Source: an uncultured Clostridia bacterium (lineage in GTDB: Bacteria > Bacillota > Clostridia > TANB77 > CAG-508). From it: a stretch of DNA of 37,876 bases. A model generated the notes under the pieces. The model had not been told where the DNA came from. It did no database searches and saw nothing but the letters and a program-made list of their open reading frames with translations. Position numbers and translations under genes: made by a program. Of the stretch, positions 2,293 to 36,836 are shown one piece after another; the stretch's first letter is position 1; every line of letters begins with the position of its first letter. The DNA is taken from NCBI GenBank assembly GCA_946410665.1, contig CAMKBC010000006.1:1-37876 (forward strand). Direction: 5' to 3'.

Positions 2293-4602
2293 TTAATGCT
2301 CCATATCAGGTCTTCTGCAATTCTTTTCTATTTCCTTTAAACAACTCTTAATAAACTGTTCATTTCCTTCTGCATTTGCTGTATCTAATCCAATTACGTA
2401 CTTTATTTCACCATTATCTTTTTCGCGCTTAAAAAACTTCTTTTTATCTACTTTATGAGTTGTCTTGTCTGTTGCTTGTTCTTCTATAAGTTTTACCTTT
2501 TCTAATACTTCCTTTGGAACTTCTTTTTTGTTTCTAAACGTCATTGCAAACGATGCACTTCCATCTTTTCGTGTTCCTACTACAAATACATATGAATAAC
2601 CTAATCTAATTGCTTTTGCGTCAAATTCTTTTATGTCTTGATTGTTTGACATTGTGAATCTTTCTCTGTTTGAAAGTACTATGGTGTTTCGTCTAATAAC
2701 TTGTAAATCTTTTTCATCGTAAAACCATTTCTTTATATAGCTCTTTTTTCCTTTAAACGTTTCCTTTGCAGAGTTTATTACGTAAGTAACTAAATCAGCT
2801 GATTTTTTAAATCTTGCCCCTGTTTTCTTAATCTTTTTAATTGCTTCAAACATTACTCTTGTAATATCTTCTTTTTCTGTAATACCATATTCTTTTAGCA
2901 CTCCATATGGTTCATCGTTTTTTGTAAACAATTCAGCTAATTTTTGTCTTCGCATTATATTAGATAATTCTGTCATCTCTGTATAGTATGTAGCCATCAT
3001 TTGATAATCTTGTATTCCTGCTTTTCCTACTTGAGTTAATGCTCTACATTTATACATTAATAATGTTTGATTCATTATTCTGGCACCGATTGCTTTCGAA
3101 TAATAATCATCTGTAATCATCTTCATTTTTACAGCATCCATCTCTGATACATCTCTTCGGAAGTTCTTTGATGTCTCTGCTATTTGATACATAAAGTCGC
3201 TTGGTATTCCTATCTCTTTGTGAAACAAATCATCCATTATTTTTGAAATAGTATAATTGGTATTTCCTTTTTTCTCTAGTGCTTGTGCTATTTTAGTATA
3301 TATAAATGCCCATCCAACTACTTTTCTATCGAAGTCTGTTATCGCTTCACCTTTATAGCTCTCTTGCATTTTTTGCAAATAATTTAAGAAGTCTATGTCT
3401 TGTCGTTCAAAGATTTTTTCATCTAATTCCGCATCGTTGTCAACTTTTTGTATCAAATCAATCCATATCTTGTTTGCTTCTTCTTGATCTCTATTTTGAT
3501 ATGTATTTACTCTATATCTATTTGCAGTTTTGTATTTTTCATATTTATTGCTTATTTTTTCAACGTTTGTTAATAATTCTTTTTTGATAAACTTTTGCAC
3601 TGCTGGTTCTAATATTGGTCCTGGCATATTTGCTATTATTTCATCTATATTGCTTTCAGTACACTTTTCTATTATTGTCTTTGCTGTTTCATCAGCATGT
3701 CTGTAATAATAAAAGAATATATGATCTAATAATTCATCAAAACTAATTAAGGATGTTGTTATTGATCCGATTCTTGATTGGCAAAGTTCCATCAAATGAT
3801 TATAGTCCTTTGTACCATTAAGATAATCTTCCATGTCTTTTGCTGATAATCTCAATGCTAGGCATTCTCCATTATCAAATGTTCCAATAGGAAGTGCTTT
3901 ACCTGTTTTTTTATCAAATACGATTGCAAAATTCTTTGTGTGTCTATCATTGTAATTTGTTAAACAATCCATTAAGCAGACTGAAATTAATTGCTTAACT
4001 AATTTGTCCGCTTCGTCTGGTTGTATGTTTTTAATTTTTCTTAAACTACGTTCGATTAATTCTAACGAATATCTTTCTCCTGTTGCTTCAACTGTTGCTG
4101 TTTCGTTTGTGTATGTTTCCTCTGCGTTTGATATGATCTTATCGATTGAGTTTAATATATATCTTTCGGCAAACTCAACACCAGAAATGTCTTCTCTGAC
4201 ATCATAACTTAAGCAGCCGATTCTTCTTTTATTTTTAACTATTTCTATTTTTGCGCAAGGTATACCAACCTTTTTGCATAATTGAGAATATATATGTTCA
4301 CCCACATGGAACTTGATTGGTTCTTCTCCAATGTGTGTTTGTTTTCCAGATCCACCACTAAAAGCCTCTTTTGTTCTTCTAGGTAAAACACCTTTTAATT
4401 TACTCGATGTTCTTCTACTTAAAGGTGTTCCAGAATTCTTGTTTGCTTCCAATCTATCGTGTAAATCTTTCAACTCACTTGGATATCTTGATTCTTTGTA
4501 AAGTGCTGTTCTCTTCTCTATTTTTATCCAATACTTTGCAGTTATTCCATTAGGTTCTTGTTTAAACGGCTTAAAATTACTTATATTCCTAATCTTTCTC
4601 AT
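2293..4602 (-). CDS. HipA/CtkA-like kinase-fold protein with long C-terminal extension
   Basis: CLTNYNDRHTKNFAIVFDKKTGKALPIGTFDNG resembles the HipA-type catalytic N-x-D-x-H-x-K-N-F motif; GEEPIKFHVGEHIYSQLCKKVGIPC resembles the HipA N-lobe. About 450 further residues unassigned. Confidence 0.6.
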   Translation of the reverse strand: MRKIRNISNFKPFKQEPNGITAKYWIKIEKRTALYKESRYPSELKDLHDRLEANKNSGTPLSRRTSSKLKGVLPRRTKEAFSGGSGKQTHIGEEPIKFHVGEHIYSQLCKKVGIPCAKIEIVKNKRRIGCLSYDVREDISGVEFAERYILNSIDKIISNAEETYTNETATVEATGERYSLELIERSLRKIKNIQPDEADKLVKQLISVCLMDCLTNYNDRHTKNFAIVFDKKTGKALPIGTFDNGECLALRLSAKDMEDYLNGTKDYNHLMELCQSRIGSITTSLISFDELLDHIFFYYYRHADETAKTIIEKCTESNIDEIIANMPGPILEPAVQKFIKKELLTNVEKISNKYEKYKTANRYRVNTYQNRDQEEANKIWIDLIQKVDNDAELDEKIFERQDIDFLNYLQKMQESYKGEAITDFDRKVVGWAFIYTKIAQALEKKGNTNYTISKIMDDLFHKEIGIPSDFMYQIAETSKNFRRDVSEMDAVKMKMITDDYYSKAIGARIMNQTLLMYKCRALTQVGKAGIQDYQMMATYYTEMTELSNIMRRQKLAELFTKNDEPYGVLKEYGITEKEDITRVMFEAIKKIKKTGARFKKSADLVTYVINSAKETFKGKKSYIKKWFYDEKDLQVIRRNTIVLSNRERFTMSNNQDIKEFDAKAIRLGYSYVFVVGTRKDGSASFAMTFRNKKEVPKEVLEKVKLIEEQATDKTTHKVDKKKFFKREKDNGEIKYVIGLDTANAEGNEQFIKSCLKEIEKNCRRPDMEH

Positions 4603-10541: not shown

Positions 10542-10567
10542 AAAAGGACGCGAAAAGCGTCCTTTTT
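10542..10567 (+). terminator. Rho-independent terminator
   Basis: AAAAGGACGC-GAAA-AGCGTCCTTTTT. Confidence 0.85.
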
Positions 10568-10593: not shown

Positions 10594-10622
10594 TTGACTT
10601 TTGGGCCTTTTGCTTATATAAT
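10594..10622 (+). promoter_or_regulatory. Promoter of the condensation/HD-GYP gene
   Basis: TTGACT-N17-TATAAT. Confidence 0.7.
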
Positions 10623-10663
10623 TAGGCCATCAAAATAATAGTTTTATTAAGTGAGGGTCTCAC

Positions 10664-13492
10664 ATGGAGAAATCTTTGTATGAATCAAAGAATCCTCTAG
10701 AAAATTCTTCAGTAATTAATTTCAATCATGAAGTTAATATTGAGAATTTGAAGCAATCTATTCAATGGGTCATTGATAATAACGATGCTTTTAAAAAGAG
10801 GGTTAGTACAAAAGACAAAGATGTTTCTACCGAGTACGACGTAAAAGTATTTGGCGTTAAGAATAAAACTGAGATTAATAAACTAGAGAAGAAGCTAGCA
10901 AACAGATTGCTAGGAGAGAATAAATTATACGATATAGTAGTTTATAAACTAAAAAATATAGGCGGAGGAATTATTATTATCATTTCGCCTTCTTTTGGTG
11001 ACTCTATATTCCTAAATAAGATTTGTTCTCAACTTTCAGATGTTTATTATCTATATGAAAACGAGATCCCTAAAGTTAAAAATATATGCAACATCATTCC
11101 GCTTGAAATAGTTCAAAAGAAAAGAAGCTATCCTGTTACAGGGACACAAAGGCGAATTTATTATTCTAATATGTTGTGCGGTGATGAGAATACTGTTTAC
11201 AATATGCCTTATGCAATCCGCTTCAATCGCAAACTTGTTGCAAGCAAGATGCAAACTGCTTTTGAAAATCTGATTAATGACAATAGCAGTTTAAGAACAA
11301 CTTTTGCATTAGCAGAATCTGAGACAGGTAAGATTGAGTTGCGTCAAAAAATCAAAAACAAAGTTACATTCAACTTAAAAGTTGTAGAAAACTATAAGTT
11401 TGAAGATAAAAATATAACTAAAACATACCAAAGTTTTGTAAAACCATTCAATATAGAAAGAGCTCCTCTACTAAGAGCTGCTTTATATGAAAACGAAGAA
11501 CAATCAATGTTATTAATTGATACACATCAACTTGTGTGTGACAAAACTTCAGTAATGTTAATTATCAAGAAGTTATTGAATTACTACAACTCAGATGTTT
11601 TAGAACAACAAATTTCACTAGATAGTTTTGCTCTAGTTGAAGAACTTGATTATAAAGATTACTCAGTATGGGAAGCAAAATATATTTCTAGCCCCGCAAT
11701 CAATATTGATAAAGATTACTGGATGGATAAGTTTATTGGGTATAATCACGAGGCTTTATATCTTCCTTATGACAATCCTTTAAATGATGCTAGAAACTAT
11801 ACTGGTGAGAAGTTAAAGTTTGATTATAGCAGAGAAAAGTTTAAGAAGATTAATAAATTTGCTCATGAAAATAATGTGCTACCAAGTTCAGTATTCTTAG
11901 CTGCACTTTATATAACTCTTTACAAATACACTGAACAAAAAGATATTGTTATTGGTGTTCCGGCAACAAACAGAAAGTTAGAAGACTTAAAAACAATCAT
12001 CGGACCTTTTGAAAACTCATTACCTTTAAGAGAATTGATTGACGAAAACGTTTCAATTGTAGATTTTATTAAAGCAATCAACTCAAGTTACTTGCAAGGA
12101 ATGGAACATCAATCTTATCCTATCGATGAACTATCAAAAGCTATCAATGTAGTCTCTGCAAACTCAGATAAACCATTGTTTGATGTTTGTTTCAACTATC
12201 ACTTCAACGAGAAAGAAAAGATTAACAGTATAGTTGATATCAGTAGAATTTGTAATTACACTTCACAGTATTTAATTACTGTAGATGTTGTTCCTGATAC
12301 TAATAAGATAAATTTCAATTATAGATCTTACCTATTCAAAACTGAAACAATTGATAGTATCGCAACTAACTACATTGCTGTTTTGAAACAATTGACCGAA
12401 TTAACCGATAAATCTATTGCTGATATCGAGGTTAATATTGATAAAGAAATTCAATTATTAATAGAAGAAAATAAGGCAGAACAAGATAAACTAAAACAAG
12501 CAAGTTCAAAAATTGTTGACCCTGTCATTGCACAAGAAGTTGATGAAAAAGAATTCCCTACTTTAGCAGAAAATACTGTTGAAGAAAATTCAAACGAAAT
12601 GGATTACTTGGATATCAACGAGCCTGATGTTTCTAAAGAAAAGATAAAAGGCAAACATAGAAACTTCATTGTATTGTTCTTTGGTAAATTAAAAGCTTTG
12701 TTCAAATATAATAAAGACACTAAAAAGAAGGAACGTGAAGAAAATCCAGAAGCAAAGAAACACATCAGAATAATTCCTTCATTCTCAAGCCAGGCAAAGA
12801 AGGCTCTTGAAGAGGAAAAAATAAAGAGTCAAACTCTTCTAGAAAAAGCATACCTTGATACCATCAATATTTTGAAGCAAACTGTTGATGCGAAAGATCC
12901 TTATACTAGAGGACATTCTGATAGAGTTTCTGCATATTGTGTTTTACTAGGAAAAAAATTGGGATGTGACGAAGATACTCTTAAGACATTGAAAATCGGT
13001 GGTCTATTCCATGATATTGGAAAGATTGGCGTTCCTGATTCTGTTCTTTTAAAGAATGGAAAGTTAGACGATGCAGAGTATGAAATGATTAAAAAACATA
13101 CTACAATCGGTGCTAAAATCTTTGGAAACGCTGAAATGTTTACTGATATTGTTCCTATAGTTTTACATCACCATGAAAGATTCGATGGAAATGGATATCC
13201 TGATAAATTAAAAGGTGTAGACATTCCTTATATTGCTAGAATATGTGCAGTTGTTGATACATTCGATGCTATGACTTCAAAGAGAAGTTATAGAAATGTG
13301 CTACCTTTAGATATTGTAAGAGCAGAAATCGATAAATGTTCTGGGGCACAATTTGATCCTATCATTGCGACAGCGTGGCTTGATATTTTAGACAATGATT
13401 ATGAGGAAATTGTGGAAATTCAAAAGGAATTTCCGCCATCAGATGAAAACTCAACAATCAATAATGACGAAACAAAATCAGAAGTAAAATAG
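10664..13492 (+). CDS. Condensation-domain-like (NRPS C-domain fold) protein fused to C-terminal HD-GYP domain
   Basis: YPVTGTQRRIYYSNMLCGDENTVYNMPYAIRF and LLIDTHQLVCDKTS (degenerate HHxxxDG region), then VDAKDPYTRGHSDRVSAY, GGLFHDIGKIGVPD and HHHERFDGNGYPDKLKG (HD-GYP). Confidence 0.88.
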   Translation: MEKSLYESKNPLENSSVINFNHEVNIENLKQSIQWVIDNNDAFKKRVSTKDKDVSTEYDVKVFGVKNKTEINKLEKKLANRLLGENKLYDIVVYKLKNIGGGIIIIISPSFGDSIFLNKICSQLSDVYYLYENEIPKVKNICNIIPLEIVQKKRSYPVTGTQRRIYYSNMLCGDENTVYNMPYAIRFNRKLVASKMQTAFENLINDNSSLRTTFALAESETGKIELRQKIKNKVTFNLKVVENYKFEDKNITKTYQSFVKPFNIERAPLLRAALYENEEQSMLLIDTHQLVCDKTSVMLIIKKLLNYYNSDVLEQQISLDSFALVEELDYKDYSVWEAKYISSPAINIDKDYWMDKFIGYNHEALYLPYDNPLNDARNYTGEKLKFDYSREKFKKINKFAHENNVLPSSVFLAALYITLYKYTEQKDIVIGVPATNRKLEDLKTIIGPFENSLPLRELIDENVSIVDFIKAINSSYLQGMEHQSYPIDELSKAINVVSANSDKPLFDVCFNYHFNEKEKINSIVDISRICNYTSQYLITVDVVPDTNKINFNYRSYLFKTETIDSIATNYIAVLKQLTELTDKSIADIEVNIDKEIQLLIEENKAEQDKLKQASSKIVDPVIAQEVDEKEFPTLAENTVEENSNEMDYLDINEPDVSKEKIKGKHRNFIVLFFGKLKALFKYNKDTKKKEREENPEAKKHIRIIPSFSSQAKKALEEEKIKSQTLLEKAYLDTINILKQTVDAKDPYTRGHSDRVSAYCVLLGKKLGCDEDTLKTLKIGGLFHDIGKIGVPDSVLLKNGKLDDAEYEMIKKHTTIGAKIFGNAEMFTDIVPIVLHHHERFDGNGYPDKLKGVDIPYIARICAVVDTFDAMTSKRSYRNVLPLDIVRAEIDKCSGAQFDPIIATAWLDILDNDYEEIVEIQKEFPPSDENSTINNDETKSEVK

Positions 13493-13502
13493 AATAAATA
13501 AA

Positions 13503-13535
13503 AGAGCAGGAATTAAATCCTGCTCTACTTTTTTA
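13503..13535. terminator. Bidirectional Rho-independent terminator between convergent genes
   Basis: AGAGCAGGA-attaaa-TCCTGCTCTACTTTTTT. Confidence 0.8.
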
Positions 13536-15116
13536 TTCTAATCCTAAATATTCGTTGTATGTTGTTTCTTTATCAATCATTGAACCATCTTTCTTGATTT
13601 CGAAAATTCTGTTGGCAACTGTTTGTGTTAATTGATGGTCATGAGATGTAAAGATCATGTTTCCTGTGAATCTTGTCATTCCTTCGTTTAATGCTGTAAT
13701 TGATTCCATGTCTAAGTGGTTAGTTGGTTCATCAAACACTAAAAAGTTTGCTCCTGATAACATTATCTTTGAAAGAACACATCTTACTTTTTCTCCTCCT
13801 GATAAAACATTAACTGCTTTTAATGCTTCTTCTCCTGAGAATAACATTCTTCCTAAGAAGCTTCTTACATATGTTTCATCTGGGTCTTTAGAATATTGTC
13901 TTAACCAGTCTGTAATGCTTTCTGTTCCTTGGAATAAGTAGTTATTGTCCTTTGGAAAGTATGAGTTTGTTATAGTTGTTCCCCATTTTACTTCTCCACT
14001 GTCTGGTTCAACTTCTCCCATTAAAATTTGGAATAGTACTGTCATCGCATTTTCATTCTCTGCTAAAACAGCAATCTTATCATCTGCTTTTACTTTGAAT
14101 GAAATGTTGTCTAAAACTTTTTCTCCATTTACTGTCTTTGTTAAATTGTTAACTTCTAGAATTTCATTTCCTGGTTGTCTATCTGGAGTAAAGTTTATAT
14201 ATGGATATTTTCTATTTGATGGTTTGATATCATCAAGTTGAATTTTCTCTAAAGACTTCTTTCTTGAAGTAGCTTGTTTTGATTTTGAAGCGTTAGCTGC
14301 GAATCTTCTGATGAACTCTTCAAGTTCTTTAATCTTTTCTTCTTTCTTCTTATTTTGGTCTCTCATTTGTTTTTGTAGTAATTGTGAAGACTCATACCAG
14401 AAGTCATAGTTTCCAGGGTAAAGTTTGATTTCCCCATAATCAACATCACAAATGTGAGTACATACTTTGTTTAAGAAATATCTATCGTGAGATACTACAA
14501 TAACTGTGTTTTCATAGTTGATTAAGAATTCTTCAAGCCATGCAATTGATTTTAAATCTAGGTCGTTTGTAGGCTCGTCTAATAATAGTATGTCTGGGTT
14601 TCCGAATAATGCTTGTGCTAATAAAACCTTAACCTTGTCTTTTGCTTCCAAATCTTTCATTAATAAATAATGTTTCTCTGGTTCAATTCCTAGGTCATTT
14701 AATAAAGTTTCAGCATCTGATTCTGCATTCCATCCATCTAATTCTGCAAATCTTTCTTCTAATCTTGCTGCCTTCATTCCATCAGCTTCACTAAAGTCTG
14801 GTTTTGCATAGATAGCATCTTTCTCTACTCTGATGTCATATAATTCTTTGTTTCCCATAACTACTGTATCAATTACTGAGTGTTCTTCAAAAGCAAAGTG
14901 GTTTTGTTGTAATACAGAAATTCTTTCAGTCTTATCCTTTGTAACCTCACCTTTACTTGGTTCTAGTTCGCCTGATAATACCTTTAAGAATGTTGATTTT
15001 CCTGCTCCATTTGCTCCTATGATACCATAGCAGCAGCCTTTGCTAAATTTTAAATTAACGTTTTCAAATAAACTTCTTTTTCCGAATCTTACAGAAACTC
15101 CTGTTACTTGTAGCAT
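13533..15116 (-). CDS. ABC-F family ATP-binding protein
   Basis: Two ABC cassettes (GANGAGKST; LSGGEKVRCVLSKIMLSGANFLVFDEPTNHLDMES), no TM helices. Likely start ATG 15116; ORF track start is 15173. Confidence 0.93.
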   Translation of the reverse strand: MLQVTGVSVRFGKRSLFENVNLKFSKGCCYGIIGANGAGKSTFLKVLSGELEPSKGEVTKDKTERISVLQQNHFAFEEHSVIDTVVMGNKELYDIRVEKDAIYAKPDFSEADGMKAARLEERFAELDGWNAESDAETLLNDLGIEPEKHYLLMKDLEAKDKVKVLLAQALFGNPDILLLDEPTNDLDLKSIAWLEEFLINYENTVIVVSHDRYFLNKVCTHICDVDYGEIKLYPGNYDFWYESSQLLQKQMRDQNKKKEEKIKELEEFIRRFAANASKSKQATSRKKSLEKIQLDDIKPSNRKYPYINFTPDRQPGNEILEVNNLTKTVNGEKVLDNISFKVKADDKIAVLAENENAMTVLFQILMGEVEPDSGEVKWGTTITNSYFPKDNNYLFQGTESITDWLRQYSKDPDETYVRSFLGRMLFSGEEALKAVNVLSGGEKVRCVLSKIMLSGANFLVFDEPTNHLDMESITALNEGMTRFTGNMIFTSHDHQLTQTVANRIFEIKKDGSMIDKETTYNEYLGLE

Positions 15117-15191
15117 TTCTTTTCTCCTATAACCTGCTATTTGTGTTAATATCCTTAACACATGCCTTGTCATTATAACATCTTTATTAAA

Positions 15192-18821: not shown

Positions 18822-20909
18822 TTATATTTCTTGTTCTGTTTCTTCTGCTTTTTTATTAACTGATTCTACTATTTCTTCTACATTGGATAATCCGCACGAT
18901 AATTCGGTAAAATCTAAGCCTAAATTTTTGGCTTCTGACATTGCTATGCCAAAAATAATTTGTTCTAGGATTTGTTCTTTAAAATCTCTTTCTTTGTTTT
19001 CTCGTCTATCCTCTAAATACAGATCAGGGCGATTATTTCCTCCACAAATAATTCTAGTACTTTTTATAAGCATATCATCTAAATTTTTAAATCCTGTATT
19101 TGATTGAGGATTAGCTCCTTTTAATAATTCTTCGCGGTTAATTTGTATAGCCCATTTGATTGTCTCAAATGGTAAATCATTCTTTTTAGGATCTGATTGG
19201 ATTGCAAAAGTTATTCCTTTCTTTTTATCGTTTATATAATGATCGCTCACACTTATTACATAGTTTGCCCCAGTAGTGTAAGCAAAATATGATGCCAGTG
19301 GATCCTTTCCACCATATATGGCAACAATTTTATTTCCTATTTGTTTATAATTTAATTCATCTATACATTTGTTTAACCTTTCTTTTATTTCGTTTTCGTA
19401 TTCTTTGACCCCATATCTCTCCATTTGTTCATCAGTTAATTTTGCGTTCTTTAAATCTGTTCCAGATTGATTTAATTCTTCACATAAACAATAAATTTGT
19501 TCTCCAGACATGCCAACTGAGGCAAGATTATAGGCATTGTTAGGTTTGATGGTCACTATATCCGGTCTATTTGCATATAAAACTACATCTCGTGGCACTT
19601 TAAATCCTAGTCTATATAATATTGATGAAATTGATATTTCTCTTTTCTCTTCATTTACATTGATAAGGATCTGATCATTATGATTAAAAACAGAACCGTT
19701 TTTATTTAAGTTTAAGTACAATCCGTGATCAACAGGTTTTGTTCCAGGCGCAATAGGTATAATGTTTTCATTTTGCAAGTCAATTCCGTTATTTCTGCAT
19801 TCTCTTTTTATTGCTTCAATTGCAACTTTAGAATCTAATGTATTAGGAGATGCTATGTATATTTTGCCGAATTTTTTTAAATTTTTCATTATCATGTTAA
19901 ATTTACGTTCATCCTCTATTGTTCTACTCTTTGTGTATTCGGATAGTCCGCATTCATTTTCATTGATAAAAGAATATGCTACTTTGCTATTCGCTTCATT
20001 TAATTCAATTCTTGGGTTCTTTCCTAATAATACTGAATATAAGAAAATCTTTCTAAATAGTTCTTCTTGATTTTTATTCTCTATTTTATTTATATCTTTA
20101 GCTTTTGCTTTTATTCTTTCCAATTCTTTTTCTATGTTACTCAAGTCTGTTATTTCATCTTTTGTATATAAAAAAGACATCTTTCCAAGTTCCCTGTTTC
20201 CTTCTGCTAGTTGCTCATATTCATGTTGTATTTCATAACAATTAATATCATATAAAATATCTTTTTCGTCATTAGGCTCTATATGAAATTGGTATGTTCC
20301 CAGATTTCCCGGTATATTTATTGCAAAAACATATGCATTATCATCTCTTATGAATCCATATATATAATTTTTATATTTTTCCGGATTGTTTCCCAGTTCT
20401 TTAATTATAGCTGAAAGCAGTTTGTGTTTTATTTCATAAAAAATTTCTTTTCGGTTTTCGTGTTGGGCGTTTTTATAATACTCTTCAAAGTCTTTTTCTG
20501 TTAATTTTGATAATTTCTTAAGTGCTTCTTTGCGTTTTTTTTCATCATTCGAATTATATTCTTTACGAATTTCGTCGAGTAATTGTTTGTTTTCAGTCTT
20601 GTATTGTTCTTCTTTTTTTATTGCATTTGTTTTTGTGCATTTGTTAACCAAAAAAGCCAATTGTATCATGGCATCTATTTTAGATTTAGCATTGTATATG
20701 GGCGTAATCAATTTGTTTCTATCAACCATTATATTCTTATCATTAAATCTTTTTTCGTGAGTGTTGGCTAACAAGTCTATATCTAACATTTCTGTGCAAT
20801 ATTGGGCTATTTTTAAAATTAATTCTTTAGCTGTTTCATGCGATAATTCTCCAATCATATCTATGTACTGAACATATGGCATGTACATTCTAATTCTTTC
20901 TTTATTCAT
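18822..20909 (-). CDS. Hypothetical protein, 695 aa
   Basis: Long uninterrupted ORF, SD-like GGGAGAA before ATG; no recognised domain. Confidence 0.85.
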   Translation of the reverse strand: MNKERIRMYMPYVQYIDMIGELSHETAKELILKIAQYCTEMLDIDLLANTHEKRFNDKNIMVDRNKLITPIYNAKSKIDAMIQLAFLVNKCTKTNAIKKEEQYKTENKQLLDEIRKEYNSNDEKKRKEALKKLSKLTEKDFEEYYKNAQHENRKEIFYEIKHKLLSAIIKELGNNPEKYKNYIYGFIRDDNAYVFAINIPGNLGTYQFHIEPNDEKDILYDINCYEIQHEYEQLAEGNRELGKMSFLYTKDEITDLSNIEKELERIKAKAKDINKIENKNQEELFRKIFLYSVLLGKNPRIELNEANSKVAYSFINENECGLSEYTKSRTIEDERKFNMIMKNLKKFGKIYIASPNTLDSKVAIEAIKRECRNNGIDLQNENIIPIAPGTKPVDHGLYLNLNKNGSVFNHNDQILINVNEEKREISISSILYRLGFKVPRDVVLYANRPDIVTIKPNNAYNLASVGMSGEQIYCLCEELNQSGTDLKNAKLTDEQMERYGVKEYENEIKERLNKCIDELNYKQIGNKIVAIYGGKDPLASYFAYTTGANYVISVSDHYINDKKKGITFAIQSDPKKNDLPFETIKWAIQINREELLKGANPQSNTGFKNLDDMLIKSTRIICGGNNRPDLYLEDRRENKERDFKEQILEQIIFGIAMSEAKNLGLDFTELSCGLSNVEEIVESVNKKAEETEQEI

Positions 20910-26336: not shown

Positions 26337-28028
26337 TTGAAAATTTTTATTTTTATTTTCTCTGTTTTTTGTTCTCTACTCATTTCTTTATTCTTACTGT
26401 TGTTTTTCAAGGACATCTTGCTAACTAGCAGTTTTCAGGTCCCAGACATTAGAATTATTAAGTTTTTTGTTTCAGATAATCAAGTTTGGAATATCGTAAA
26501 ATTAGTGTTTGTTTCTAGTCTTTTGGTATCTAATTTTTTAATATCTCATTTTATAATTAATAAATTTTTTAAAACGCAAAATAATGTTTCTATTTCAAAA
26601 GCCCCTGATTTTGGACTACTTATAGGCAAAGATTTAAACAATAATAATATCTATATTCCAGAAAAAAGTATGTATCAAAACATCCTAGTCGTTGGTTCTA
26701 TCGGTTCTGGTAAAACATCTTCTGCAATGTACCCTTTTACTAAACAATTAATGAAATACAAGTGTGATAACTCTGAAGAAAAATTAAGTTTCTTAATACT
26801 AGATGTTAAAGGAAATTACTACTCTAAAGTTCTAGCTTTTGCAGAAAAATTTGACCGTTTAAAGGACGTTATTGTAATTGAGTATGGTGGTAGTTTTAAA
26901 TACAATCCTTTAGATAAACCAGACTTAAAAGCTTCAATTTTAGCAAATAGATTAAAAACGATAATGCTGTTATTTTCTCCAAATAATACTGAATCTTATT
27001 GGCTAGATAAAGTCGAACAAGTTTTAGAAAGTTGTATAGTCCTTTTAAGATCTGCCTATGATAATTATCTTACTTTCTATGAACTTAATAGACTCGTTTG
27101 TGATAAAGATTACTACGTTATTATAAAAGATTTGATAAGAACCAACTTCAATAAAGGTCTCTATGACTCTGGTCAGTGTTATGCTATATACCATAGCTTT
27201 GAATTCTTAGATTCTGATTACTTCTCTTTAGATGATCGAACTTATAATTTATTAAAGTCTGAAATTACTAGAATAACTAATTGCTTTGTTTCTAATTATA
27301 AAGTTAAACAAACATTCTGCCCTACCAAAGAAGAAGAAAATTTCTATGGATTTGATGATGTTTTAGCAAATGGTAAGATTGTTGTTTTGAATATGAATGT
27401 TGCAGAATATAAGAACTTAGCAAAGATTATCGCTGCTTATTTAAAACTTGATTTTCAAACTGATGTCTTAAAACAATTAAGTAAAAAATCCAATAAAAGC
27501 ATTCGTCCAAGCGTGTTTATTTCAGACGAATATCAAGAATATGTCACCTCTTCTGATGCTGATTTTTATTCACAATCAAGAGAATCGAAATGTATAAATA
27601 TCGTTTCTACTCAAAGTTATACTTCCATTTTAAACACTATTAAAGATCAGTCATCAACCAAAGTAATTATTCAAAATTTAGTTAATAAACTGTGTTTCAG
27701 AACAGACGATATTTTTACAATTGAAGACTTACAAAAGCAAATAGGAAAGGAAGAAAAGAAGAGGGTTTCAAAAACTTACTCAGAGAGTTCTAAAGAAAGT
27801 AAGTATGATGTTCTTCATAAAGACTTCATTTCTTCACAAGGAAATATCTCAGAAAGCATTAATACTTCTTATCAAAACGACTATGTTTTTGACTCTAACT
27901 TCTTTACTCAAACGCTCAAATCTTTTCAGTGTCTTGGCTTTCTTTCTACCGGTGATGAAATATTAAAACCTCAACAACTTCAAATGATTCCATATTTCAA
28001 GGAGGATTCAAATAATGAAAAAACATAA
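26337..28028 (+). CDS. VirD4/TraG-type T4SS coupling ATPase
   Basis: Two N-terminal TM helices, Walker A VVGSIGSGKTSSAMYP, Walker B PSVFISDEYQEYV; TTG start. Confidence 0.9.
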   Translation: MKIFIFIFSVFCSLLISLFLLLFFKDILLTSSFQVPDIRIIKFFVSDNQVWNIVKLVFVSSLLVSNFLISHFIINKFFKTQNNVSISKAPDFGLLIGKDLNNNNIYIPEKSMYQNILVVGSIGSGKTSSAMYPFTKQLMKYKCDNSEEKLSFLILDVKGNYYSKVLAFAEKFDRLKDVIVIEYGGSFKYNPLDKPDLKASILANRLKTIMLLFSPNNTESYWLDKVEQVLESCIVLLRSAYDNYLTFYELNRLVCDKDYYVIIKDLIRTNFNKGLYDSGQCYAIYHSFEFLDSDYFSLDDRTYNLLKSEITRITNCFVSNYKVKQTFCPTKEEENFYGFDDVLANGKIVVLNMNVAEYKNLAKIIAAYLKLDFQTDVLKQLSKKSNKSIRPSVFISDEYQEYVTSSDADFYSQSRESKCINIVSTQSYTSILNTIKDQSSTKVIIQNLVNKLCFRTDDIFTIEDLQKQIGKEEKKRVSKTYSESSKESKYDVLHKDFISSQGNISESINTSYQNDYVFDSNFFTQTLKSFQCLGFLSTGDEILKPQQLQMIPYFKEDSNNEKT

Positions 28029-35099: not shown

Positions 35100-36836
35100 T
35101 TATTTATTAATAATATTTTTCTCATATTCTGATGAATCAATTTTAGATATTACGTGGTTCGCACCAATAAATAATAATGATTCACCTTTGTTTAATGATT
35201 TAATTTTTATTTTCTCTTTCTCATTTAAATTAATGTTTTCACTTAATACTTTTATATTTTCTTCTTCCATATTAAAGAAAGCTTTAAACTCAGAATTGTT
35301 TAATAAACTCTTTCCAAATGCACCATCTTGTAAACTAAACATGTCTGAAATATCTTGAGTAATAGCTACTGCGCTACCACCATATTTTCTGATAGTTTTA
35401 AAAATCTTATAAATAAAACTTGCCACTTCTTTATTAGAAGTAATACCTATTAATTTCCAAACTTCATCCATATAAATAATCTTATTTTCATTACGATTAC
35501 TTTTTATCTTATCCCAAAACAAATCTGTAAAAACAAACATTCCATATTTTAAATTCTCTTCTCCTAATTCATATACATCGCCTACTATTAAGTTATTATC
35601 CAATTTTATATTTGTATAATTATTAAGAAATTTAAGAGAACCTTTAACAAATGGAATAAGTTTTACTTGATATTTATAATCCAAATTTTTATATAAATCT
35701 TCAAAGATTGGCATGTCGTTTGTAGTTTTAAAGTTACCTTTTCTATATAAAGAATCATCATCAAAAGTAATGTTTTTATCTTCATATGTTTTAATTATCT
35801 TAGCTTCTAAATAACCTTTTTCATCTTCACTTAAATCGCTAAAAACAAGTTTAAAAAATGCCATCAACTTAGATATTTTAGTTTGTAAATATCCTGATTG
35901 ATCACTTTCTAAACTATCTTCTCTAATATCAAAAATATTAATATAAGTATTTGAACTTGGCCCTATTTTAATTAGTGAACCTTTTAATTCATCTACTAAA
36001 TTTCCATACTCTCTGTCTGGATCAATTACATATTGTTTGATATTCAATAAGTAATTTCTTAAAATCATTACTTTATTAAAATAAGATTTACCTGAACCAG
36101 AAGTTCCAAAAACACACATATTAGAATTTTTATATTTATCTTGATTAAACCTATCTACAAAAATTAAACTGTCGTTATTTAGATTTGTACCGTACATTAT
36201 CCCCTTTTTGTCATTTATTGTGGATAACGTAAACGGATAAGTAACTCCAATAGAGCTAGTTAAAATATTTCGTTTAGCCACATTTTTAATATCCTTATCA
36301 TTCTCAATAAAAGGAAGACTAGATTTAAAAATAGACTCTTGCCTAAAATATCCTTTTTTAGAAACCATACCACTTGATTTTAAAATACTCTCTATTGTGT
36401 TTATTTTTCTTTCTAGGACTTTTTTATCTAAATCATAGGTTAGAATATATGTATATATAAAATACATATCCTCGTTGGTAATTTGAATTTCTTTTCTAAT
36501 ATACTTTGCATCATTAATTGAAAACGAAGCTATATCACTATCTTGTCTACTCTCGCCTATCTTTTCTATATCAATAGAATTATTAGATATATTGTATGTT
36601 AATTCTTTTATTACTTTAGCTTTATCCTGCTTTTCAAAATGTATAGAAATATTAATATTTTCATCATTCTCAATAAGCTGTTTAAAAATTAATTCATTGT
36701 ATTCTCTTAAATAATCGACAACTACTAACCGCGAAAAATAAACTCCATCAACTTCAAAAGTTTTAGGATTCTTAAAATTGAAATACGATGGACTTATTAA
36801 ATCTTTTGTATTTATTCTTCCTTCTTTTATGCTTAT
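35100..36836 (-). CDS. VirB4/TraE-type T4SS ATPase
   Basis: Walker A VFGTSGSGKSYFNK, Walker B KIIYMDEVWKL. Frame is open from 36836 (ATA after AGGAGG) to 35100 without stops; ORF track starts only at the internal ATG 36467 and truncates 123 codons. Confidence 0.85.
   Translation of the reverse strand: MSIKEGRINTKDLISPSYFNFKNPKTFEVDGVYFSRLVVVDYLREYNELIFKQLIENDENINISIHFEKQDKAKVIKELTYNISNNSIDIEKIGESRQDSDIASFSINDAKYIRKEIQITNEDMYFIYTYILTYDLDKKVLERKINTIESILKSSGMVSKKGYFRQESIFKSSLPFIENDKDIKNVAKRNILTSSIGVTYPFTLSTINDKKGIMYGTNLNNDSLIFVDRFNQDKYKNSNMCVFGTSGSGKSYFNKVMILRNYLLNIKQYVIDPDREYGNLVDELKGSLIKIGPSSNTYINIFDIREDSLESDQSGYLQTKISKLMAFFKLVFSDLSEDEKGYLEAKIIKTYEDKNITFDDDSLYRKGNFKTTNDMPIFEDLYKNLDYKYQVKLIPFVKGSLKFLNNYTNIKLDNNLIVGDVYELGEENLKYGMFVFTDLFWDKIKSNRNENKIIYMDEVWKLIGITSNKEVASFIYKIFKTIRKYGGSAVAITQDISDMFSLQDGAFGKSLLNNSEFKAFFNMEEENIKVLSENINLNEKEKIKIKSLNKGESLLFIGANHVISKIDSSEYEKNIINK

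Follow-up and report, generated by a model that had tools for sequence, protein, structure and literature searches.

DSF quorum sensing runs on a synthase-RpfC-RpfG logic. The X-domain of glycopeptide NRPSs has the condensation (C) domain fold, carries HRxxxDD/E at the catalytic motif, is inactive and recruits P450s (PMC6565677, PMC11546977); ORF18, a stand-alone C domain from the streptothricin pathway, reads HQxxxDM and is active nonetheless (PMC11546977). NRPSs of the AusA type and reductase-terminated NRPSs of the gut release dipeptide aldehydes that go on to form pyrazinones (PMC12153313, PMC12327764). The gene that is the subject of this analysis, which lies in a window of 37,876 nucleotides (the whole stretch of DNA analysed, from an uncultured Clostridia bacterium), joins remnants of two C domains (C1 and C2) to an HD-GYP domain (Table 1). 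With the REC-HD-GYP regulators of its own family (RpfG-like, encoded beside a histidine kinase) it shares an orthologous HD-GYP domain, a coiled coil and an ABC-F neighbour; it differs from them in having ~600 residues of C-domain remnants where REC should be and in missing its partner kinase. The order C1 to C2 is common to the fusion and to the dimodular, reductase-terminated NRPSs of the AusA kind and the gut dipeptide-aldehyde synthetases, but the fusion has no adenylation (A), carrier (T) or reductase (R) domain and its catalytic motif is altered: it is not an NRPS. In HHxxxDG, both the second His and the Gly have been substituted, as in the X-domain, whose structure 4tx2 is among the closest solved folds; unlike the X-domain, the fusion stands outside an NRPS, has no P450 context and is attached to a signalling phosphodiesterase (PDE). 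Its C2 domain has the same His-to-Gln change as ORF18 (compared from the literature only), which, in contrast, is active in a pathway with carriers and has no HD-GYP domain.

Table 1. Features of the fusion gene and its immediate surroundings (window coordinates; residues are those of the fusion protein)
Feature	Position	Strand	Basis or detail
Intrinsic terminator closing the upstream GPx-HerA unit	10542..10566	+	10-bp stem, 5 G-C pairs, then T-run
Promoter-like site TTGACT-17-TATAAT of the fusion gene (putative)	10594..10622	+	11/12 consensus matches
RBS-like GAGGG	10653..10657	+	sequence reading; 6 bases 5' of ATG
Fusion gene: C1 N-lobe, C2 condensation domain, linker, HD-GYP	10664..13492	+	942 aa
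N-lobe of first-module (C1-type) condensation domain	10688..11083	+	residues 9-140; genus C1 profile
Complete second-module (C2-type) condensation domain	11120..12460	+	residues 153-599; Pfam PF00668
Altered catalytic motif H288-Q-L-V-C-D-K294 (relatives: HHxxxDG)	11525..11545	+	alignment
Linker: low-complexity, basic amphipathic FIVLFFGKLKALFK, pre-HD coiled coil	12461..12868	+	residues 600-735
HD-GYP domain	12869..13360	+	residues 736-899; PF13487 (HD_5) 118.7 bits
Bidirectional intrinsic terminator 3' of the fusion gene	13503..13526	.	9-bp stem, 5 G-C pairs, both strands
ABC-F ATPase gene, convergent; lies to the right of the HD-GYP gene in the ancestral order	13533..15173	-	synteny with genus loci

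A search of the genus with the fusion protein finds, in most genomes, a separate HD-GYP protein of about 350 aa; ~6.5 kb upstream of its gene is a C domain in a ~2,400-aa frame, and the protein encoded between them is mostly 603-616 aa long. Pfam reads the large protein as C-A-T-C-A-T with a terminal NAD_binding_4 reductase, the middle one as a HisKA_7TM-PAS-HisKA-HATPase kinase and the last as REC-HD-GYP. NRPS, kinase and regulator follow one another in this order on the same contig and strand in 22 of the 31 genus genomes, the gap between kinase and regulator being 9-90 bp in most cases; beyond the regulator, most genus loci have a convergent ABC-F gene whose product is 85-87% identical to that of the window. 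Beyond the genus, a count by eye gives more than 30 genomes in which a C domain and an HD-GYP domain share a contig and a strand and lie within ~25 kb of each other. Operons of NRPS, HisKA_7TM-PAS kinase and REC-HD-GYP are seen family-wide, genus loci such as L057:2858-13418 and L062:2093-12305 included. The nearest NCBIfam equivalog of a relative's NRPS is the aureusimine synthetase AusA (1341.9 bits, under the cut-off of 2500), and the relatives' enzyme is expected to be aureusimine-synthetase-like, releasing a dipeptide aldehyde or pyrazinone; the AusA model is also the best match of the window's C domain (169.9 bits, far under the same cut-off). The operon resembles a circuit of signal synthase, sensor and c-di-GMP phosphodiesterase, in an arrangement like that of synthase, RpfC and RpfG in DSF quorum sensing; no description of an NRPS-kinase-HD-GYP operon was found in the open-access literature. 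Variants occur in the genus: in one genome a one-module NRPS and kinase lie on the strand opposite to a lone REC-HD-GYP gene (G146, L060:3474-11924), and another has a second NRPS-kinase pair with no adjoining regulator (G167 contig 82, L090).

The fusion gene sits where these relatives have the operon, and its origin in a collapsed NRPS-kinase-PDE operon is well supported by the comparison of loci. The ancestor would have encoded an NRPS (C-A-T-C-A-T-R), a 7TM-PAS histidine kinase and a REC-HD-GYP response regulator. In the species of the window the HD-GYP end of the locus and its ABC-F neighbour survive, together with the C1 N-lobe and C2, but the A, T and R domains, the remaining half of C1, REC and the entire kinase have disappeared. 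A linker that is new, followed by the coiled coil that already preceded HD, joins the C1 N-lobe and C2 in frame to HD-GYP. The C-domain remnants thus stand in the place of REC. When the NRPS, kinase and regulator of two relatives were compared with the window by tblastn, only the C and HD-GYP parts matched, apart from a weak HD-like hit at 373-564; remnants of A, T, R, kinase or REC were not found. The NRPS and kinase parts are absent from the syntenic place in the window, and they are likely to be absent from the rest of the genome: the assembly, which is 86.5% complete, has a single Condensation domain (the window's), yielded no HisKA_7TM match, and has AMP-binding ORFs for which no link to an NRPS was seen. 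The fusion accordingly has neither the REC domain and partner histidine kinase of an HD-GYP response regulator nor, in cis or in trans in this assembly, the A and carrier domains of an NRPS. The sequence-only reading had already remarked that no adenylation or carrier domain lies nearby; its further suggestion, that a substrate held by a carrier elsewhere is modified by the fusion, is improbable, since the assembly yielded no NRPS carrier as a partner. A 1421-aa AMP-binding ORF on contig 5, considered as a second NRPS, has no C domain and looks like a PEP-synthase-like/acyl-activating fusion. Absence of an Sfp-type phosphopantetheinyl transferase was dropped as a sign of NRPS loss: it is uninformative, since in congeners that do have the NRPS the ORFs seen are likewise of AcpS size only.

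A frameshift had been named as a possible source of the fusion, but the frame is open over all 942 codons, with zero internal stops. The gene follows a glutathione peroxidase-HerA unit and looks monocistronic, because it has its own promoter-like site (41 bases 5' of the ATG) and is flanked on both sides by terminators; these elements are putative consensus matches, and expression is predicted. The source is a single MAG of 74 contigs with 3.56% contamination, the sole genome of the species seen, and confidence in the overall reading is limited on this account. An in-frame assembly artefact is unlikely: to the idea that assembly or binning has wrongly joined NRPS pieces to an HD-GYP gene we give very little credence. 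The single, fragmented and slightly contaminated MAG, with no second copy of the fusion seen, speaks for it; against it, two independent junctions would each have to preserve the frame, the gene comes with a promoter and terminators of its own and adjoins the expected ABC-F gene, and the C parts match no relative's NRPS above about 37% identity, so that they do not stem from a recent join with congeneric sequence.

The N-terminal lobe is specifically of the C1 type, since residues 9-140 score 42.3 bits against a profile of the genus first-module C domains and only 13.3 bits against the second-module (C2) profile; the best of 500 shuffled controls reaches 8.5 bits with the C1 profile. A truncated C-like lobe at the N-terminus, proposed from inspection, is thereby borne out, even though Pfam gives the first 150 residues alone 11.4 bits, below significance. 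The position of HHLxxDA reads SPSFGDS, and in the AlphaFold model strands and helices alternate in the lobe at a pLDDT of about 54-90. The succession of C1 N-lobe and whole C2 repeats the domain order of a dimodular synthetase.

The C2 domain is complete. Pfam Condensation covers residues 153-599 with 255.9 bits (cut-off 30.6); AlphaFold, with a 47-row alignment, gives a mean pLDDT of 83 over residues 1-640, mostly 90-97 in the C domain; and Foldseek finds TM scores (target) of 0.85 to 4tx2 (the teicoplanin X-domain) and to the C domain of 8rz6. All three are in keeping with the CAT-like architecture of a condensation domain, which has two lobes and about 450 residues, and the proposed C-domain fold holds. 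In an alignment of 53 C2-type domains, the window's included, HHxxxDG is present in 51 of the 52 relatives, whereas the window has DTHQLVCDKTS: the second His is Gln, as had been noticed, the Gly is Lys, and the motif of a catalytically competent NRPS condensation domain is not there. The exception among relatives (L014, G083 contig 105) reads HPIVADQ, in the context DTHPIVADQKS, within an NRPS frame that has adenylation domains; its composition is unusual and it may be a contaminant contig. Of the 35 columns conserved in 95% or more of relatives the window C2 keeps 28 (80%), and of the 58 conserved in 80-95% it keeps 40, compared with 62 of 267 conserved in under 60% (odds ratio for conserved versus variable columns 9, p 3e-17). 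His288, D293, R211, Y330, D332 and W353 are kept; losses at conserved columns include H289Q, G294K, M448P, V450E and K535Q, of which M448P and V450E fall in the conserved GMFVN stretch. Stops in the 450 C2 codons number 0, against 37 in shuffles. All this fits a folded, non-canonical C domain, the modelled fold and the motif loss being together like those of X-domains.

The history of this domain is less straightforward than its fold. Its identity to the genus C2s is 30-33%, against 61% among the genus C2s, and at most 36% to those of other genera. Its branch is the longest in the C2 tree (1.56), which groups it with C2s from other genera (support 99/88, subject to a long-branch caveat); a tree uniting it with the genus C2s is rejected (p-AU 0.002, with the same caveat). 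On this placement, the NRPS part may descend from another NRPS lineage than that of the congeners; alternatively, long-branch effects may mislead the tree. The C2 profile score, 383.8, is the lowest among the C2s scored (the others range from 443.9 to 609.9). Third-position GC is 0.25, compared with 0.12-0.16 in relatives' C2s, and might reflect relaxed selection or a different history; comparison by codon position does not tell constraint and decay apart here, the divergence being great enough to saturate it. The long C2 branch outside the genus C2s, the lowest profile score, the GC and the single MAG are counted against the collapsed-operon reading.

Does the C domain still catalyze? Loss of the second His had been read as degeneracy, and degenerate the domain is; inactivity does not follow from that loss alone, because ORF18, with HQxxxDM, is catalytically competent (PMC11546977). 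Activity as an acyltransferase or condensation enzyme on a carrier-bound or free substrate, coupled to HD-GYP, would accord with ORF18 and with retention of His288 and Asp293. We consider it improbable nevertheless: the Gly of DG has become Lys, the GMFVN stretch is further damaged, and the assembly offers neither an NRPS A/T partner nor another C domain. That the C-fold region lacks condensation activity is the best reading, and the HQ and DG-to-DK changes, the other losses at conserved positions and the lack of NRPS partners in the assembly together point to a non-biosynthetic role.

The HD-GYP domain shows no comparable damage. Pfam places the HD match at residues 750-870, and the motifs HDIGKI/L and HHExxDGxGYP of an HD-GYP phosphodiesterase are intact (HDIGKIG at 783 and HHHERFDGNGYP at 835), in agreement with the fusion of C domain to HD-GYP first read from the letters. 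The domain is 56-71% identical to the genus REC-HD-GYP orthologues and, of the 125 positions that do not vary among nine congeneric sequences, keeps 104, with no loss listed in the named motifs; its closest solved relative by sequence is 4mcw (1.6e-39). The HD-GYP tree gave no supported placement of the window row. The preceding coiled coil is one also found in the REC-HD-GYP relatives, and an AlphaFold model from another alignment has a helix at residues 709-744 leading from linker into HD-GYP; its low-confidence residues 517-562 and 790-819 are left uninterpreted because C2 alignment rows overran into the HD region. A REC profile has zero match to the fusion protein, and the linker thus holds no REC remnant. 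A search of the genome for GGDEF, which the sequence-only reading had proposed, gives two matches, and the PDE therefore plausibly has a substrate. It is likely, judging by its motifs, to be an active phosphodiesterase that would still hydrolyse a cyclic dinucleotide, with c-di-GMP as the default.

A serious rival to a working C fold, and a quite possible one, makes the C region a passive relic: selection would maintain a kinase-free, constitutive HD-GYP, and the remnants would be a decaying extension that stays in frame, soluble and non-toxic. The C region has diverged to 30-33% identity to genus relatives where HD-GYP retains up to about 70%, the C2 profile score is the lowest, C1 has shrunk to half its length and no longer has its motif, and the fusion is limited to one species, all as such decay would have it. 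Against it, conserved structural positions are kept and a full fold is confidently predicted, which indicates constraint, unless the divergence mostly predates the fusion.

On balance we hold it somewhat more likely than not that the operon collapsed, that HD-GYP is active and that the C fold is kept as an N-terminal module replacing REC. Peptide-bond making would have been given up and phosphorylation-driven control with it; the module would most likely act through dimerisation or presentation of the coiled coil, and a ligand bound in the former donor/acceptor cleft might gate it. Regulation of HD-GYP by the C fold is possible on this evidence. A more specific version, rather doubtful, is a one-component receptor binding a small peptide or aminoacyl ligand in the old cleft and so setting second-messenger turnover; the ligand might be dipeptide aldehydes or pyrazinones from neighbouring species that kept the NRPS, and the receptor would replace the lost synthase-kinase-regulator circuit. 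The earlier proposal of a C fold repurposed as a sensor or binding module thus survives, as repurposing into an N-terminal module, in the leading explanation, but it had missed the origin, at a site where relatives have NRPS, 7TM kinase and REC-HD-GYP.

An HD-GYP orthologue is present in 330 of 390 family genomes, and, among the best ~150 matches listed, family HD-GYP ORFs are about 220-430 aa long, the window's 945 excepted; listed HD-GYP matches in relatives cover the HD region only, and listed C matches sit in NRPS frames. No second C-HD-GYP fusion was seen in a 391-genome sample of the class, no homologue of the fusion at 80% coverage was found among plasmids, and no second such frame was found among plasmids, genome contigs, family and class (about 960 genomes); a paper on a C domain-HD-GYP fusion was not found in the open-access literature. 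Should the protein be functional, a catalytic fold from biosynthesis will have been turned into a signalling part through the collapse of the operon that encoded it. Dozens of relatives still have the ancestral operon intact, which makes both ends of the collapse comparable and lets dipeptide aldehydes and pyrazinones be tested as signals feeding cyclic-dinucleotide levels; the fusion has, in addition, exposed the association of reductase-terminated NRPS, 7TM kinase and REC-HD-GYP across a family of small-genome bacteria.

Elsewhere in the window, a 769-aa protein (2293-4602, minus strand) with a sub-threshold HipA_C match adjoins an APH-type phosphotransferase and a guanylate-kinase-like protein, and a 695-aa protein (18822-20909, minus strand) has no Pfam match. 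Conjugation-type, TrwB/TraG-like ATPases are encoded at 26337-28028 (plus strand) and 35100-36467 (minus strand); they suggest an integrative element or its remains in the right half of the window.
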